33,546 bases of DNA from a virus. Of this stretch, positions 23,563 to 31,977 are shown in pieces. The first letter of the stretch is position 1. Each line of letters begins with the position of its first letter. The notes under the pieces were generated by a model. That model was not told the origin of the DNA, made no database searches, and saw only the letters and a list, made by a program, of their open reading frames with translations. The position numbers were made by a program, and so were the translations under genes. The DNA is taken from positions 1-33,546 of IMG/VR virus record IMGVR_UViG_3300025711_000021; one strand, written 5' to 3'.

Positions 23563-25757
23563 GTCTTCTCCTTGTTCTCAACTTCACCCGATGGTGAACC
23601 AAAGTCATACCTCGCGGTTTGCTCCTGCTTGGTAGCGCAATGCTCTCTCGGATGATGTCTCATTTCAACAGCATTATTGCAGTCTTGTTCTTCCATGTTT
23701 TGCCATAACACTTCTACACATGCACTTTTAGATTGAAGATGTGGTCTTGCAACACGCTTCCCTTTAAATTTTGCCACAATCGCCCTCACGGCGGCTGTGT
23801 CTGTCCAGTCAATGACTCGCAATGTGTATGAAGTGGATCCTGTAGCATCGCTTTCAGCCTGGCTATCGCGCCTATTTGTGGCTTGTTTCTTTTCACCTAA
23901 CCCACAGTTATTGACAGGACTCCGAGGCGCGCCGGAGGCGCTTTTTGACGTCAAAATCTCAACGTCAACGGCAGAAGAAACGATGCGCCATTGAGTTGTA
24001 CGGGTTTCATAAACACGGGCGTCACCGAGGTGAGGCGCGAAAATACCGACAACTTTTTTCACTTCTTCATCGTAGGCATTCAACTCATCAGCAACGCGGC
24101 GGGCTACACGCACCGTCTGATCGTCGCGTGGGACATTTGCGCCGCCCTGGGCTGACATGTACGCCATAAAATCACCGGCATCAGCAGCAGCGCGGACGGC
24201 TTCCACTTCTTCGTCAAAAGTTTCAGTCAGATTGGTGGAACGGATGCGGCGGCACTCACGGTATGAACCCATAGTAGGCAGGCCGATAGGATGAAATTGA
24301 GGGATCCGCCAGGTAGCAGCCCAGGCGGTAACAGCAGCAGCGGAATCTGTCAGCAGCTCACCGGTTTCGTGGTCACGCTCGCCTTCCAGTGCGTAACCGT
24401 CGATGTTCTTTGCGATGTATTTAGCGATGTAGCCAGCCGCGCCGCCACGGTTCAGATGCTTACAGTCAAAGCGGTTCTTTGCTGCACCGCGTTCGTCGCC
24501 GTCTTCTTTCATGGCGTATTTGCGCATGATATCGACCACCGGCTGACGCATGGCGGGCTTGCTGAACAGCATCATGTGCCAGTGCGGCGTCGCGTCGTGG
24601 TGAGGTTCTACAACGCGCATCCCATAAACGGACAGGTCGCTATCCTTGAACGCGGTGCGCATTTTGCTCCAGATCCCGCACAGATAACGCTGCGCATCTT
24701 TCGGGGTATAGGCTTCTTTGTCCCAGGCATGATTTCGCTGAACGCGCTTGTTATCACCTTTACCAACCATGCGGGTCGGGTGATATTTAGAAGGGGTGGT
24801 GATGGTCAGCAACATCCCGATGTCGCCATTTGCAGCGGCATATTTTTCGGTGCCGGCGATCGTGCTCATTAACTCCATGCGGCGGATTTCAGGGTTTGAA
24901 ATGCTCGCCATCACTTTGTCGATCAGACTGAAACGCTCGCAGGTTTCGATGTTCTCCAGGTCGCAGCTTTTCAGATAGTCGAGATTCGACAGACGGCGCG
25001 CACGTACCTCACGGATAGCCTGCTTACTGGCATACGGGGAAGCATCACGGTTCACTTTGCCGATGGCGATCAGTAAAGATTCACGCCAGCGGGTGCGCTG
25101 GCCTTTCAACTGGCGTAACCACCAATCCGGATTAACCAGGCGCGACATGGCAGCGATGGCGGAAACGGCATCCAGTCTGTCTTTGCAATACCTTGTCCAG
25201 TACATCGGCGTGACATTGAAAGCCTGTGCTATACCGGCTATTTCGCTGTACAGCTCGCACTGAGTATCACTTTCAAAAAGAATCGAATTATCGTCGTTGT
25301 ATTGAGCAAGCAGCTGATCACAACGCTCTTCATAGATTTCTTTCAATTGTCCGGCGATGTCCTGTGCGAACCGCCGCAGCGGTTTATCACCCATACTCGG
25401 CAGGCTGTGATAGGTGTCTGCCTCAGACATGAATTTCATGGAGGCTTTGACATTCATTGCGTGAGCCGCATTAACCGCCTCGACGCGGGGAAGGATGCTG
25501 CGACCAAGGGTATAAATCAGGTATTTATTGGCGGCGTGAATGCCCTGCGTTTTCAGCAGATACGCATGGCGACCTGTGAAAATTTCCCGTAGGTCGGTAG
25601 AGAGTGTTTTTACTCTGATTAAAACGGCTTGCCCCTGATCGTATTCATCACGGGTAAGCGGTCTTTCAAGACCAGAAACGGCCTGACGTGGTTTGTTCCA
25701 GGGAAACGCCCAAGCTGCGGGCGTTTTAATCTGAGGAGTGAAGCGGCTGGTCTGCAT
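23502..25757 (-). CDS. A: Replication initiator A (HUH rolling-circle nickase)
   Basis: A 751-aa protein, close to P2 A (about 761 aa). It nicks the phage origin and starts rolling-circle replication while covalently attached to DNA. The HUH metal motif is PHWH (H392, H394) within EPHHDATPHWHMMLF. The paired catalytic tyrosines are Y443 and Y447 in GYIAKYIAKN. The N-terminal 380 residues are the family's own domain. The ATG overlaps the stop of the preceding 27-aa peptide (TAATG). P2 A carries its origin within its own gene; I cannot locate the exact nick site here. Confidence 0.93.
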   Translation of the reverse strand: MQTSRFTPQIKTPAAWAFPWNKPRQAVSGLERPLTRDEYDQGQAVLIRVKTLSTDLREIFTGRHAYLLKTQGIHAANKYLIYTLGRSILPRVEAVNAAHAMNVKASMKFMSEADTYHSLPSMGDKPLRRFAQDIAGQLKEIYEERCDQLLAQYNDDNSILFESDTQCELYSEIAGIAQAFNVTPMYWTRYCKDRLDAVSAIAAMSRLVNPDWWLRQLKGQRTRWRESLLIAIGKVNRDASPYASKQAIREVRARRLSNLDYLKSCDLENIETCERFSLIDKVMASISNPEIRRMELMSTIAGTEKYAAANGDIGMLLTITTPSKYHPTRMVGKGDNKRVQRNHAWDKEAYTPKDAQRYLCGIWSKMRTAFKDSDLSVYGMRVVEPHHDATPHWHMMLFSKPAMRQPVVDIMRKYAMKEDGDERGAAKNRFDCKHLNRGGAAGYIAKYIAKNIDGYALEGERDHETGELLTDSAAAVTAWAATWRIPQFHPIGLPTMGSYRECRRIRSTNLTETFDEEVEAVRAAADAGDFMAYMSAQGGANVPRDDQTVRVARRVADELNAYDEEVKKVVGIFAPHLGDARVYETRTTQWRIVSSAVDVEILTSKSASGAPRSPVNNCGLGEKKQATNRRDSQAESDATGSTSYTLRVIDWTDTAAVRAIVAKFKGKRVARPHLQSKSACVEVLWQNMEEQDCNNAVEMRHHPREHCATKQEQTARYDFGSPSGEVENKEKTCTTMNGKRKRTQRAISQIK

Positions 25758-27846: not shown

Positions 27847-27912
27847 AAAGCAAAATCTCCCTTTGAGCAGTTTGAGTTCTACTGTGTAACATGTGGTGTG
27901 TCGTCACTTTAG

Positions 27913-27947
27913 AATACAAACATAGATTTGTAAAATGCTTTTGTATT
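27913..27947. promoter_or_regulatory. Candidate CI/Cox operator region
   Basis: AATACAAA (27913-27920) and TTTGTATT (27940-27947) form a perfect inverted repeat around a third half-site TTTGTAA. They lie between divergent cox and CI. The third half-site gives three TTTGTA-like units, consistent with cooperative repressor binding. Confidence 0.55.
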
Positions 27948-27960
27948 TTTCAGGTGGGCA

Positions 27961-28827
27961 ATGTCTGAATCCAAACCTAATGCGTCGGAAGTACTTGATC
28001 GTTTATCTTCCTCTTATGGCGTCACAACACAGAAAGAGTTGGCTGTATGTCTGGAAATCTCTCCTGGCAACGTTAGTGCCTGGATGCAGAGGGGAAGCGT
28101 TCCCGGTAACGCCATCATCAAATGCGCGCTAGACACTGGTGCAGATCTCAAGTGGCTAGTAACTGGTTTGTTTGCAAAAGCAAATTTGAAAAATACTAAT
28201 GTCGCAAAAAGTGCCAGAGCTGACTGCGGTAAATCATTGTTAAAAAAAATGTTATCTGCGGGCGGGAAGTCAGTTCTTAAAAGAATTTTGGAGGCTTACG
28301 GTTTCACGACTCAAAAAGAATTAAGTGAATATTTAGAGATTTCTACAGGAACGATTAGCACATGGGTTCGTAGGGAATATTTTCCTGGCGATGTAGTGAT
28401 TACTTGTGTATTAGATACAGGTGTTTCACTTGAATGGCTCGCTACAGGGGAGATGAGTAATGAGTCGCAAGAGGAACCTGCAACCTCAGGAATACCAACT
28501 ATCTCTAAAAAAATACTTCTGGCAGGTAAACTTGATGATGATGGTTATTGTTACCTCGATGAGTCGTTTGTCCCTGAAGGAGTCAATTTAAAAAACCTCA
28601 ACTATGTTCGTAGCGGAAAATCAGCATGGTTAATAGAAATGCAAGTTAGCGAATTATCAAATGGATGGTGGCTGTTAGATATTGATGGGACGTTGGATGT
28701 TTACGCAGTTTCTAAACGTCCTGGGAATAAATTACGGATCAATGGTCATGATGGTGAGTTTGAGTGTTTAACAAATGAAGTTACACCAAAAGGATTGGTT
28801 ATAGTTATTTTAAAAACTGCGATATAA
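27961..28827 (+). CDS. cI: 186-type CI repressor with duplicated DNA-binding domain
   Basis: A 288-aa lysogeny repressor; 186 CI has about 192 aa. The extra length is a second N-terminal domain. Copy 1 (residues about 8-69) reads SYGVTTQKELAVCLEISPGN and KCALDTGADLKWLVTG. Copy 2 (about 104-164) reads AYGFTTQKELSEYLEISTGT and TCVLDTGVSLEWLATG. Each has its own helix-turn-helix (ELxxxLEIS..N/T.S.W) and is joined by a Lys/Ala-rich linker. The C-terminal oligomerisation domain (about 178-288: YLDESFVP, SGKSAWLIEM, WWLLDIDG) is single and normal. AGGTGGG precedes the ATG. CI should hold the early operon off; two tandem binding domains would change operator spacing. Confidence 0.85.
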   Translation: MSESKPNASEVLDRLSSSYGVTTQKELAVCLEISPGNVSAWMQRGSVPGNAIIKCALDTGADLKWLVTGLFAKANLKNTNVAKSARADCGKSLLKKMLSAGGKSVLKRILEAYGFTTQKELSEYLEISTGTISTWVRREYFPGDVVITCVLDTGVSLEWLATGEMSNESQEEPATSGIPTISKKILLAGKLDDDGYCYLDESFVPEGVNLKNLNYVRSGKSAWLIEMQVSELSNGWWLLDIDGTLDVYAVSKRPGNKLRINGHDGEFECLTNEVTPKGLVIVILKTAI

Positions 28828-29147: not shown

Positions 29148-30032
29148 TTATTTGTTCTTTGCCAGGTTTGCTTTTCCCGTTGGTACATGATGAATTGTTC
29201 CCGGTGTACCTTCCGGTTGTGTCACTCCATATCGGGTGACATTAATTTGGTCTGCCCCTCTAGAATCAATCCATTTTTGATCTTTTAAATACACATCCCA
29301 GTGGTATGCACCCCCTGGCGTATTGGGATTCGCCCATCCATTATCAGAAATATCTAAAAATACAGGTTTAGATTGCCGAGTGATTACACTATCAGTATTG
29401 CGTAAATACCATTTAACTGGTGGTGTAAATGAATATTCTCCTGTGTCAGGTAAAAGTATATCGTAACGAGTGGTCCATGGAACCTGAATGTTTCTCATTG
29501 AAGAAATACAAGCTATTGGGACTGCTCCATTCAAACCAGTGCTGGAGATATAAATTCTCCATCTTAAACGTTCGGTTATTTTAGAATGGCCAACAGTATG
29601 TGTTTTTATATTTCGTCCGTCTATTTCCTCAATGAAAAGGTAAGCTTGCTTGTAGTTAGAGATGCAATAAAATGCAGATCGGGCTAGGGAATCACCAAAG
29701 TCAATATCTTCTTTAGATGCTAAGTTATAGAACAATGGTTTTATGCCCCATGCACGAATATGTACCGTCGTACTCATATCGACAGTCTTAATGACTCTCC
29801 TTAGACTCAATAACGCTGTATTTAAATCCCCGTCATTAAATAGCTGTGTCAATTTTTTAATATATGTTCTTTCGATATATTTCCATTGGGCTTGATCAAC
29901 TATTATTCCACAATTAAAAGTGCGATTAATATTCAATATTTTTTTTAGGTTGGCTTTAACTTCGATAAGCCTTTGTTTGCTGTAATCTAACCCTTTAGCA
30001 GGGAGAAAAACATACGGGTCAATTAACATCAT
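29148..30032 (-). CDS. Unknown partner protein of the AAA ATPase module
   Basis: A 294-aa protein. ATG 30032 is preferred because AAGGA is 8 nt upstream; ATG 30041 is in frame. It overlaps the ATPase gene end by 14 bp, so the two are coupled. The N-terminal part (MLIDPYVFLPAKGLDYSKQR) is followed by a helical middle. A Trp/Asn/Gly-rich C-terminal domain reads DISDNGWANPNTPGGAYHWD, then DQINVTRYGVTQPEGTPGTI and HHVPTGK. The conserved-looking HWD, HH and Asp/Asn residues suggest an enzyme or ligand-binding site, but I recognise no family. As the second gene of an ATPase pair it is the likely effector of a defence module. Confidence 0.65.
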   Translation of the reverse strand: MMLIDPYVFLPAKGLDYSKQRLIEVKANLKKILNINRTFNCGIIVDQAQWKYIERTYIKKLTQLFNDGDLNTALLSLRRVIKTVDMSTTVHIRAWGIKPLFYNLASKEDIDFGDSLARSAFYCISNYKQAYLFIEEIDGRNIKTHTVGHSKITERLRWRIYISSTGLNGAVPIACISSMRNIQVPWTTRYDILLPDTGEYSFTPPVKWYLRNTDSVITRQSKPVFLDISDNGWANPNTPGGAYHWDVYLKDQKWIDSRGADQINVTRYGVTQPEGTPGTIHHVPTGKANLAKNK

Positions 30033-31599
30033 CCGGCTCATCCTTATCTAAATGCTCTATATTTCCCTCACTAACGTCTGATATATCATCCTCTTTGTCC
30101 AATGCAGCATAGTAAATTTCTTGTTCAGCATTTACTGCCGCATCCATGAAATCGGTTGGCCAAACTTCTATACTACCATCCCTCTTAATAAGGCTTGATT
30201 CAATTGATGTTTTCCCATCGGTCTGATTTACACTGACAACGCGAATATTAGTGCTGAGCCATTGCTCAATTTCACTTTCTGGTCGAGATTGGGCTAATAA
30301 TTTACGCAAACGTCGGACCATATGGTCACTATGTGTTTCAATAATTACTTGGCGATTTGCTCGCGCCAAAGAAACAAACCATGTTGATAGGCGTGACTGC
30401 ACTTTTGGATGAAGATGAGACTCTGGCTCTTCAAAGGCACAAAGGCGGTTTTTAACTGATTCAATGATATCAACTCCGAGTTTAAAACGCATAGGGTCAC
30501 TAAATAATCCTAGCTGAACTATGGGCAACAAATATGTGAGTCCTCTTCCTACATGAGAGAATGTCGCCTTACCAAACATTAGTCTAAACCCAACCTTTTC
30601 TATTTCGTGTATAGATAGGGGCGTATCAATCCCGAGACCTAAAAGAATCTCATTAATTGCGACGGCCAAACTAGTCTCTTTTGGTGTAAAAGGAATGTTT
30701 ATATCATCGAAGTTCGGAAAAAGATAATGTACAGGTTCCTCTTTATGAGTGTAAAGTAATTGCGCTGCAAACTCACCGCTAATTCCAATATCCTCTCCGC
30801 TTGATGAGTTAGGAGAATATATGGATAAAGGTAGGCCACGAGTAGAACTTAAATATGAGAAACCTTTTAGCAAGGATTCCAGAGAATCAAGGGGCTGAGT
30901 AAATAGAACATTAAAGGCGTTCGCAAGTGAACGTTGTCTATTTCTGGGACCTATATTCCGCCGATCTATTGAGATCGATGGAATGAAATGATGCACGTCA
31001 ACATCAATTTTTCTATATACTACGTCATCCCAGTAGCACTGATAGCGTCCTTCCTCGTTTCTATCGATCGTCAATCGCGCGCAAACGAAGGCTGAGTCAT
31101 GAAAATCTGAACTTAATGATGAGGTGAGACCTATTTTTTCTAATACAATTTTCCCATTTAACTCAGCATATTGTAAATCCAGTTTACAATAAAGCTGAAC
31201 TTCTTTCCCTAGATGATCCGCAAGCCATGGCAGTGCAGCTTTATCCATGAGAGTGGTAAGATCTGGATTTCCAGAAATTTCAAGAGCTTTATCGATATTC
31301 ACTTGTGAAGACCATTCAATAGAAAAGTATGGTCCTTTTACATTTCCCGTCGTTTCTGGCCAACCTGAAATTAACTCTCTTAGATTTACAGCGGAAACAT
31401 AACCATCGATATTTAATACAGTTTCAACCCTTGCTAATTCAAGTGTTTGCTTCAGTAAAAGTAACGCCTGAGTTATAGAGCTTTTCCCGCTATTATTTTT
31501 ACCGAGAAATACTGTTAGTTGGGCAAATTCAACCCTTGTTTTGTCATATATGCTTTTAAAGTTCTCTATCGTTAATGCAAGTAATTTTCCGGACTCCAT
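30019..31599 (-). CDS. RecF/OLD-like AAA ATPase (DUF3696-type), defence-module sensor
   Basis: A 526-aa ATPase. ATG 31599 is chosen (AGGG 8 nt upstream; MESGKLLALTIENFKSI is the classic opening). Walker A is GKNNSGKSS (33-41). A long insertion follows (about 60-330). The signature-like motif is SHVGRGLTYLLPIVQLGL, Walker B is CAFEEPESHLHP, and the switch His is in VIIETHSDHMVRRLR. The tail DGSIEVWPTDFMDAA matches DUF3696-type proteins. There is no Toprim domain, unlike P2 Old, so nuclease activity must come from elsewhere. The ATPase is followed by the overlapping partner gene, as in many sensor-effector defence pairs. The sequence is complete and AT-rich. Confidence 0.8.
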   Translation of the reverse strand: MESGKLLALTIENFKSIYDKTRVEFAQLTVFLGKNNSGKSSITQALLLLKQTLELARVETVLNIDGYVSAVNLRELISGWPETTGNVKGPYFSIEWSSQVNIDKALEISGNPDLTTLMDKAALPWLADHLGKEVQLYCKLDLQYAELNGKIVLEKIGLTSSLSSDFHDSAFVCARLTIDRNEEGRYQCYWDDVVYRKIDVDVHHFIPSISIDRRNIGPRNRQRSLANAFNVLFTQPLDSLESLLKGFSYLSSTRGLPLSIYSPNSSSGEDIGISGEFAAQLLYTHKEEPVHYLFPNFDDINIPFTPKETSLAVAINEILLGLGIDTPLSIHEIEKVGFRLMFGKATFSHVGRGLTYLLPIVQLGLFSDPMRFKLGVDIIESVKNRLCAFEEPESHLHPKVQSRLSTWFVSLARANRQVIIETHSDHMVRRLRKLLAQSRPESEIEQWLSTNIRVVSVNQTDGKTSIESSLIKRDGSIEVWPTDFMDAAVNAEQEIYYAALDKEDDISDVSEGNIEHLDKDEPDDVN

Positions 31600-31977
31600 A
31601 GCTAATACCCTATATACTTTTGAATTTTGATAAACACCAATGCGCAAATGTAAAACCTACTTGCCCATGATGCCCTCATTTATAGCGTTATTGAACAGAT
31701 TTGAAAAGTGTTACTATAGTAATTCTACGATTTCGACACAAAAATCACTCGCTTTTCTTCGTTGATGAAAGATCTTTGCATTCTTAGTGCTGAGCTCGTT
31801 CTTCTGGCACTAAAGAGACTTTTGTGTCGTTGTTTTAGTGCTGTGATATGTAGTATTCATGTTGATAAGTGCCAGACTATACATAAATTGGCATTATTTT
31901 ATGATAAACATACCCTTGCGCTGACATGCAGATACTATTTTCAACAAATTTTCTTGATAAAGTTCTGGAGTAATTCA
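31600..31977. other. Divergent intergenic region
   Basis: The upstream region shared by the ATPase module (minus) and the membrane-anchored protein gene (plus). An open frame from 31762 continues into the latter, but its first 70 codons are Cys-rich and atypical, so I do not count them as coding. Confidence 0.4.

Follow-up and report, generated by a model that had tools for sequence, protein, structure and literature searches.

The window analysed here, a 33,546-nt stretch of viral DNA (IMG/VR record IMGVR_UViG_3300025711_000021), encodes the immunity repressor CI of a 186-type (Peduoviridae) prophage, and the DNA-binding domain of this repressor is duplicated. The second of the two domains, or heads, would read the conserved flanking sites and the first would read pR, two jobs that phage 186 packs into one head. 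Judging from sequence comparisons, we give this reading a probability of about 0.6. The features of the region are listed in Table 1.

Table 1. Features of the cI region in the window
Feature	Start	End	Strand	Details
cII homologue	26892	27398	-	PF06892
Candidate FR	27413	27430		AGTCAGCTTATTCAAACT on the minus strand; cox-cII gap, at the 186 FR position; imperfect palindrome, weak general-matrix match
Divergent early gene at the cox/apl position	27430	27846	-	138 aa; phrog_3554
pR	27906	27934	-	-35 TTTACA (27934-27929), 17-bp spacer, -10 TAAAGT (27911-27906); common to most group A phages
Candidate head-1 operator pair	27911	27949		27911-27928 and 27932-27949, 21 bp apart; shuffle p ~0.11
Palindrome-like element, 18 bp	27915	27932		TACAAACATAGATTTGTA; across the pR spacer; one exact occurrence only in the window
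cI, double-headed 186-type immunity repressor	27961	28827	+	288 aa, ATG start; ORF call, Pfam, separate HMM, AlphaFold2
Head 1	27982	28167	+	PF07022; residues ~8-69; recognition helix region PGNVSAWMQRG, variable in group A
Linker joining the heads	28168	28266	+	Residues 70-102; dN/dS 0.2-0.8 vs close relatives
Candidate FL	28169	28186		TGTTTGCAAAAGCAAATT; inside cI right after head 1; flanking-site matrix
Head 2	28267	28452	+	PF07022; residues ~103-164; recognition helix region TGTISTWVRRE, near-constant in group A
C-terminal oligomerisation-type domain	28501	28785	+	PF16452; residues 181-275

Architecture of the repressor and its surroundings

A preliminary description of the gene had proposed two diverged copies of the 186 CI head on one tail, and the domain searches agree with it. 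Pfam finds two stretches of PF07022 (whole-protein E-value 5e-43, best stretch 105-164) and a single C-terminal PF16452 domain (E-value 4e-16), and the motifs quoted there are present in both copies (TTQKELAVCLEIS / TTQKELSEYLEIS and LDTGADLKWLVTG / LDTGVSLEWLATG). The two heads are not a chance match, as a separate HMM yields domain E-values of ~1e-34 and ~1e-33; the second head matches as strongly as the first. The recognition helices of the two heads are unlike. An AlphaFold2 model built on 27 relatives (mean pLDDT 77) places a linker helix (83-100) between two five-helix bundles (helices within residues 8-68 and 102-162) and ends in a beta-rich tail; the domain arrangement is uncertain (pTM 0.45). 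The top PDB match to this model is 186 CI, with 2fkd among the matches.

Like CI of phage 186 (PDB 2fjr, 2fkd; NP_052279), the window CI carries an N-terminal CI-type HTH head and the 186-type C-terminal oligomerisation domain, and its gene is divergent from a cox/apl-like gene and cII, with pR, on the minus strand, in the gap that separates cI from the cox-like gene. Unlike the window CI, 186 CI has exactly one head in 192 aa (L054 in our set; PDB 2fjr), as had been stated. Two DNA-binding domains per chain are also known from the repressor of cluster A mycobacteriophages (TipsytheTRex; PMC9283540), but those are unrelated domains (HTH and Stoperator) in a monomeric protein with asymmetric sites. 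We rejected a Stoperator-type repressor for the window, as both heads belong to PF07022 and the structure search leads to 186 CI.

In the open literature searched, we found no account of two-headed 186-type repressors; a prior report in subscription papers is possible. Public annotation already shows the architecture (Pfam; Midge record). The CI proteins of PSP3, SEN1, SW9/SI22, Midge, and RCIP0057 are annotated merely as "repressor", and the repressor passages of an Eganvirus comparison that includes PSP3, SW9, SI22, and SEN1 (PMC11126057) are silent on two heads.

Adjoining cI, at 29148-31647 on the minus strand, are two genes at the place where relatives such as PSP3 have int. One encodes an ATPase of the OLD/AAA type (542 aa; best PADLOC model NsnB, E-value 5e-55) and the other a 297-aa protein with no match at all; together they may form a defence pair. 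In Yersinia phage 31.17, too, cI is followed by an ATPase gene. At 1877-2803, also on the minus strand, the tail tape-measure ORF is shortened to 308 aa, and no U, D, ogr, or int was seen in the window. The prophage seems to be decayed or rearranged at the tape-measure end.

The two-headed family and the divergence of its heads

A search for the same architecture elsewhere, which the preliminary description had suggested, returned dozens of independent two-headed CI records, GenBank phages included. Our set comprises 91 ORFs with two heads, encoding 66 distinct proteins, and 175 ORFs with one head; this sample is not unbiased, and no CI in it has three or more heads. An assembly or fusion artefact is ruled out by the 66 distinct two-headed proteins in independent records. 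The architecture of the window CI is shared by relatives in Rahnella laticis (82% identity), Rahnella inusitata, and Buttiauxella brennerae, by 44 IMG/VR contigs, and by phages PSP3, SI22, Midge, RCIP0057, and vB_EcoM-613R3. No near-identical cI gene was found in E. coli chromosomes.

The window type, group A, comprises 54 double-headed records, among them Rahnella and Buttiauxella prophages and phages PSP3, SI22, Midge, and others. CI of PSP3 (NP_958086), SEN1, SW9/SI22, Midge, and RCIP0057 has the same two heads, with 46-49% full-length identity to the window CI; these phages also possess the flanking-site network, while their head 1 and pR operators differ from those of the window. Throughout group A, head 2 is near-constant and keeps the helix S/T-G-T-I-S-T-W-V-R-R, whereas head 1 diverges. 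Group B, the Klebsiella type, comprises 36 double-headed records with a CI of ~313 aa. Like the window CI, its members (ST437-OXA245phi4.2, Kp4860-7, p1878-9k) have two PF07022 heads on a 186-type tail. They differ in a probably separate duplication, in the recognition helices of the two heads, which are nearly alike (QSTMANRYARD / KSTLANRYMRD), and in the conserved head, which is head 1. FL or pB copies of FR were not found in group B.

We built a tree of 75 heads. In it, the first heads of group A fall into a single clade (99/95), those of group B into another (100/100), and a branch (97/97) separates the group A heads and one Yersinia phage from group B and the other single heads. AU tests rejected a single clade, and hence one origin, for all double heads (p 0.006), and also head 1 of both groups as one clade (p 0.031). 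As the tree and the tests rest on only 66 alignment columns, we give this evidence moderate weight. The simplest reading is that the head duplication occurred independently, at least twice.

Several other arrangements of heads and tails were seen. The one-headed CI of YenM_31.17 (L064) clusters with the group A heads and could be an ancestral form or a case of head loss. In Gilliamella prophages (L004 and L051, 2880-4200), three separate ORFs stand side by side; each has a single CI-type head, and their short C-terminal tails are nearly identical. The cI genes of L031/L038 (heads 94-97% alike), of L003/L057, and of group B combine alike heads with strongly different tails (22-43% identity), which suggests a modular exchange of heads and tails.

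We compared dN/dS of the window cI with five close relatives. The values were 0.03-0.10 for head 1, 0.05-0.16 for head 2, and 0.09-0.20 for the tail, while the linker was relaxed (0.22-0.80). Hence both heads are under purifying selection and therefore in use, and neither is degenerate in the relatives, as a copy without DNA-contact residues would be. It is highly improbable that head 1 has stopped binding specific DNA sequences and acts as a spacer, a dimer contact, or an antirepressor target instead. Such a role would agree with its faster divergence compared to head 2, but not with the strong purifying selection on it, its match to the Pfam HTH, or its conserved helix framework, in which W41 is invariant and R44 near-invariant.

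Candidate sites at the flanking positions and at pR

In the record of 186, CI sites are annotated at FL (inside cI), FR (before cII), pB, and pR. Group A, the window included, has candidate flanking sites at corresponding positions: in most phages, a AACTTGCAAWWTCAAGTT-like palindrome is found at FL and FR, and in PSP3-type phages at pB too. The motif itself differs, being ATTCAC..GTGAAT in 186 and AACTTG..CAAGTT in group A. Group A phages other than those of the Rahnella-type clades have a near-perfect palindrome at the FR position in the cox-cII gap, for example AACTTGATTTTGCAAGTT. With a matrix derived from the flanking sites of non-Rahnella group A phages, the best match in the 33.5 kb of the window is the candidate FL, and the FR of the window clade, an imperfect palindrome, matches weakly. 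Rahnella-type relatives have no clear flanking site at pB. Upstream of ogr, the Rahnella-type phages L266-L273 have a conserved inverted repeat, TGTATG...CATACA, that is unlike the flanking motif.

The FL palindromes are kept while the encoded peptide changes (ELTNVR, KLEKAS, EFAFAK, LFANAN). In one phage (L007, 3205-3240), the FL position is expanded to a GCAAAT repeat encoding ANANAN.

We also ran a held-out matrix, trained on the FR sites of six phages from outside the PSP3 group, over complete genomes. In PSP3, it produced four outstanding matches (27.7, 16.2, 15.9, and 15.9; the next scored 6.5), namely FR, the cox 5' end, FL, and pB, and these places also rank highest in SI22, Midge, and SEN1. 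Nothing in the 186 genome scored above 6.2. As a positive control, a matrix from the FR of 186 alone ranked the 186 FL and both pB sites next. The best single score reached 15.9 in one of 25 surrogate PSP3 genomes, so one match could be due to chance, but several matches at the predicted places could not. The match at the cox 5' end (24239-24256 in PSP3, L278) is a fourth flanking-type palindrome, lying within the cox-like gene; SI22, Midge, and SEN1 have it at the corresponding position. No CI site is annotated at this place in 186. Yersinia phage 31.17 lacks the group A motif at FR despite a head-2-like recognition helix. Fels-2 (one head) and Kp4860-7 (group B) have an FR without matching FL or pB partners, and for this reason we do not extend the flanking-site argument to them.

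The palindromes at FL, FR, and pB could instead belong to CII or the Cox-like protein, leaving the role of the second head unrelated to them. FR does adjoin the CII-activated pE region, and these phages differ in cox and cII as well. Still, all three positions are those of annotated CI sites in 186, whose own CII binds elsewhere, over the start of cII, according to the 186 record, and the Cox-type protein of 186, Apl, is described as binding direct repeats (PMC7498355), while these repeats are inverted. We consider this assignment improbable. Even less probable is that one polypeptide acts as a pseudo-dimer, gripping one asymmetric site with both its heads like the repressors of the cluster A mycobacteriophages. 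A monomeric repressor with two DNA-binding domains provides a precedent (PMC9283540), and one chain of CI does carry two different heads; yet the near-perfect palindromes at the flanking sites suit two identical heads, and the retained 186-type tail is the one that forms a 14-mer wheel in 186 (PMC8053113).

At pR, the promoter element is common to most of group A, and the spacer and the upstream sequence vary between phages. We rejected the palindrome across the pR spacer of the window as a repeated site, since it has no second exact copy and its matches with three mismatches are at chance level. The L002 clade has two 16-bp sites, almost the same in sequence, at a spacing of 21 bp (shuffle p ~0.005), RCIP0057 has a similar pair (p ~0.01), and 21 bp is the best site spacing in several other clades, the window included. 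Such pairs would fit joint action of both heads at pR, with one subunit on paired sites about two helical turns apart providing strong repression alone. However, the paired copies are alike, while the recognition helices in group A differ, and 186 has several pR sites with one head. Moreover, a constant head 2 would not be expected to read a variable pR, and the pair in the window is not significant by itself (p 0.11). Overall, joint action at pR seems unlikely.

Proposed assignment of heads to sites and its consequences

The earlier suggestion that the two heads may recognise different operators gains comparative evidence in group A, where the helices differ and so do the two classes of candidate sites: the flanking class is constant and follows head 2, and the class at pR varies. 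PSP3, SI22, and RCIP0057 have in common head 2 (0.90-0.94) and FR (0.89-1.0), and differ in head 1 (0.48-0.57) and pR (0.42-0.48). In partial Mantel tests over 13 phages, a set assembled after the motif was seen, FR followed head 2 once head 1 was accounted for (r 0.42, p 0.006), and did not follow head 1 once head 2 was accounted for (r -0.14). FL likewise followed head 2 after correction for head 1 (r 0.57, p 0.0002), although linkage would have favoured head 1, as FL abuts the head-1 coding region. A weaker association of FL with head 1 was seen too (r 0.29, p 0.018).

The assignment of head 1 to pR is the weaker half of this model. Given head 2, the partial correlation of pR with head 1 over the 13 phages was 0.16 (p 0.15), and simple correlations of pR with the two heads did not separate them; the remaining association could be explained by linkage, since head 1 is encoded beside pR. 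The case for head 1 at pR comes from the variability of both, from elimination, and from one pair of phages, L003 and SI22, whose head 1 belongs to one clade and whose pR spacers agree at 0.88 identity, with little in common in the 5' leader (0.46) or the tail (0.35).

Under the split reading, head 2, adjoining the oligomerisation domain, would bind the palindromic FL in cI and FR between cox and cII, as well as pB upstream of ogr where ogr is present. Head 1 would bind the operators overlapping pR and thereby set the immunity specificity of each phage. The subunits probably still assemble via the 186-type tail, and a single particle could then occupy pR through some of its heads and a flanking site through the rest. 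We infer from these comparisons that CI is the protein binding the flanking palindromes, with head 1 on pR and oligomers bridging pR and the flanking sites; a 14-mer wheel may be supposed by analogy with the tail of 186 CI.

CI of 186 serves as a model for a repressor with two different target sequences and action at a distance. Two sites do not require two heads, as 186 does both jobs with one head, which binds two distinct sequences (Shearwin 2002). There is about an even chance that the duplication freed head 1 and the pR operators to diversify, while the constant head keeps the flanking network and the control of pB. If so, the duplication would be an escape from the need of a single 186 head to read two unrelated operator classes, and the immunity type would be a plug-in module, replaceable with the flanking (looping or wrapping) network left intact. 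The same architecture appears to have arisen independently in Klebsiella phages. The same type of tail carries one head in some phages, two unlike heads in group A, and two like heads in group B. This natural series would allow one to test how dual specificity splits after duplication, and how immunity types can diversify while the remaining network stays functional; the function of the flanking sites would be testable as well, since mutation of one head could remove each class of sites.
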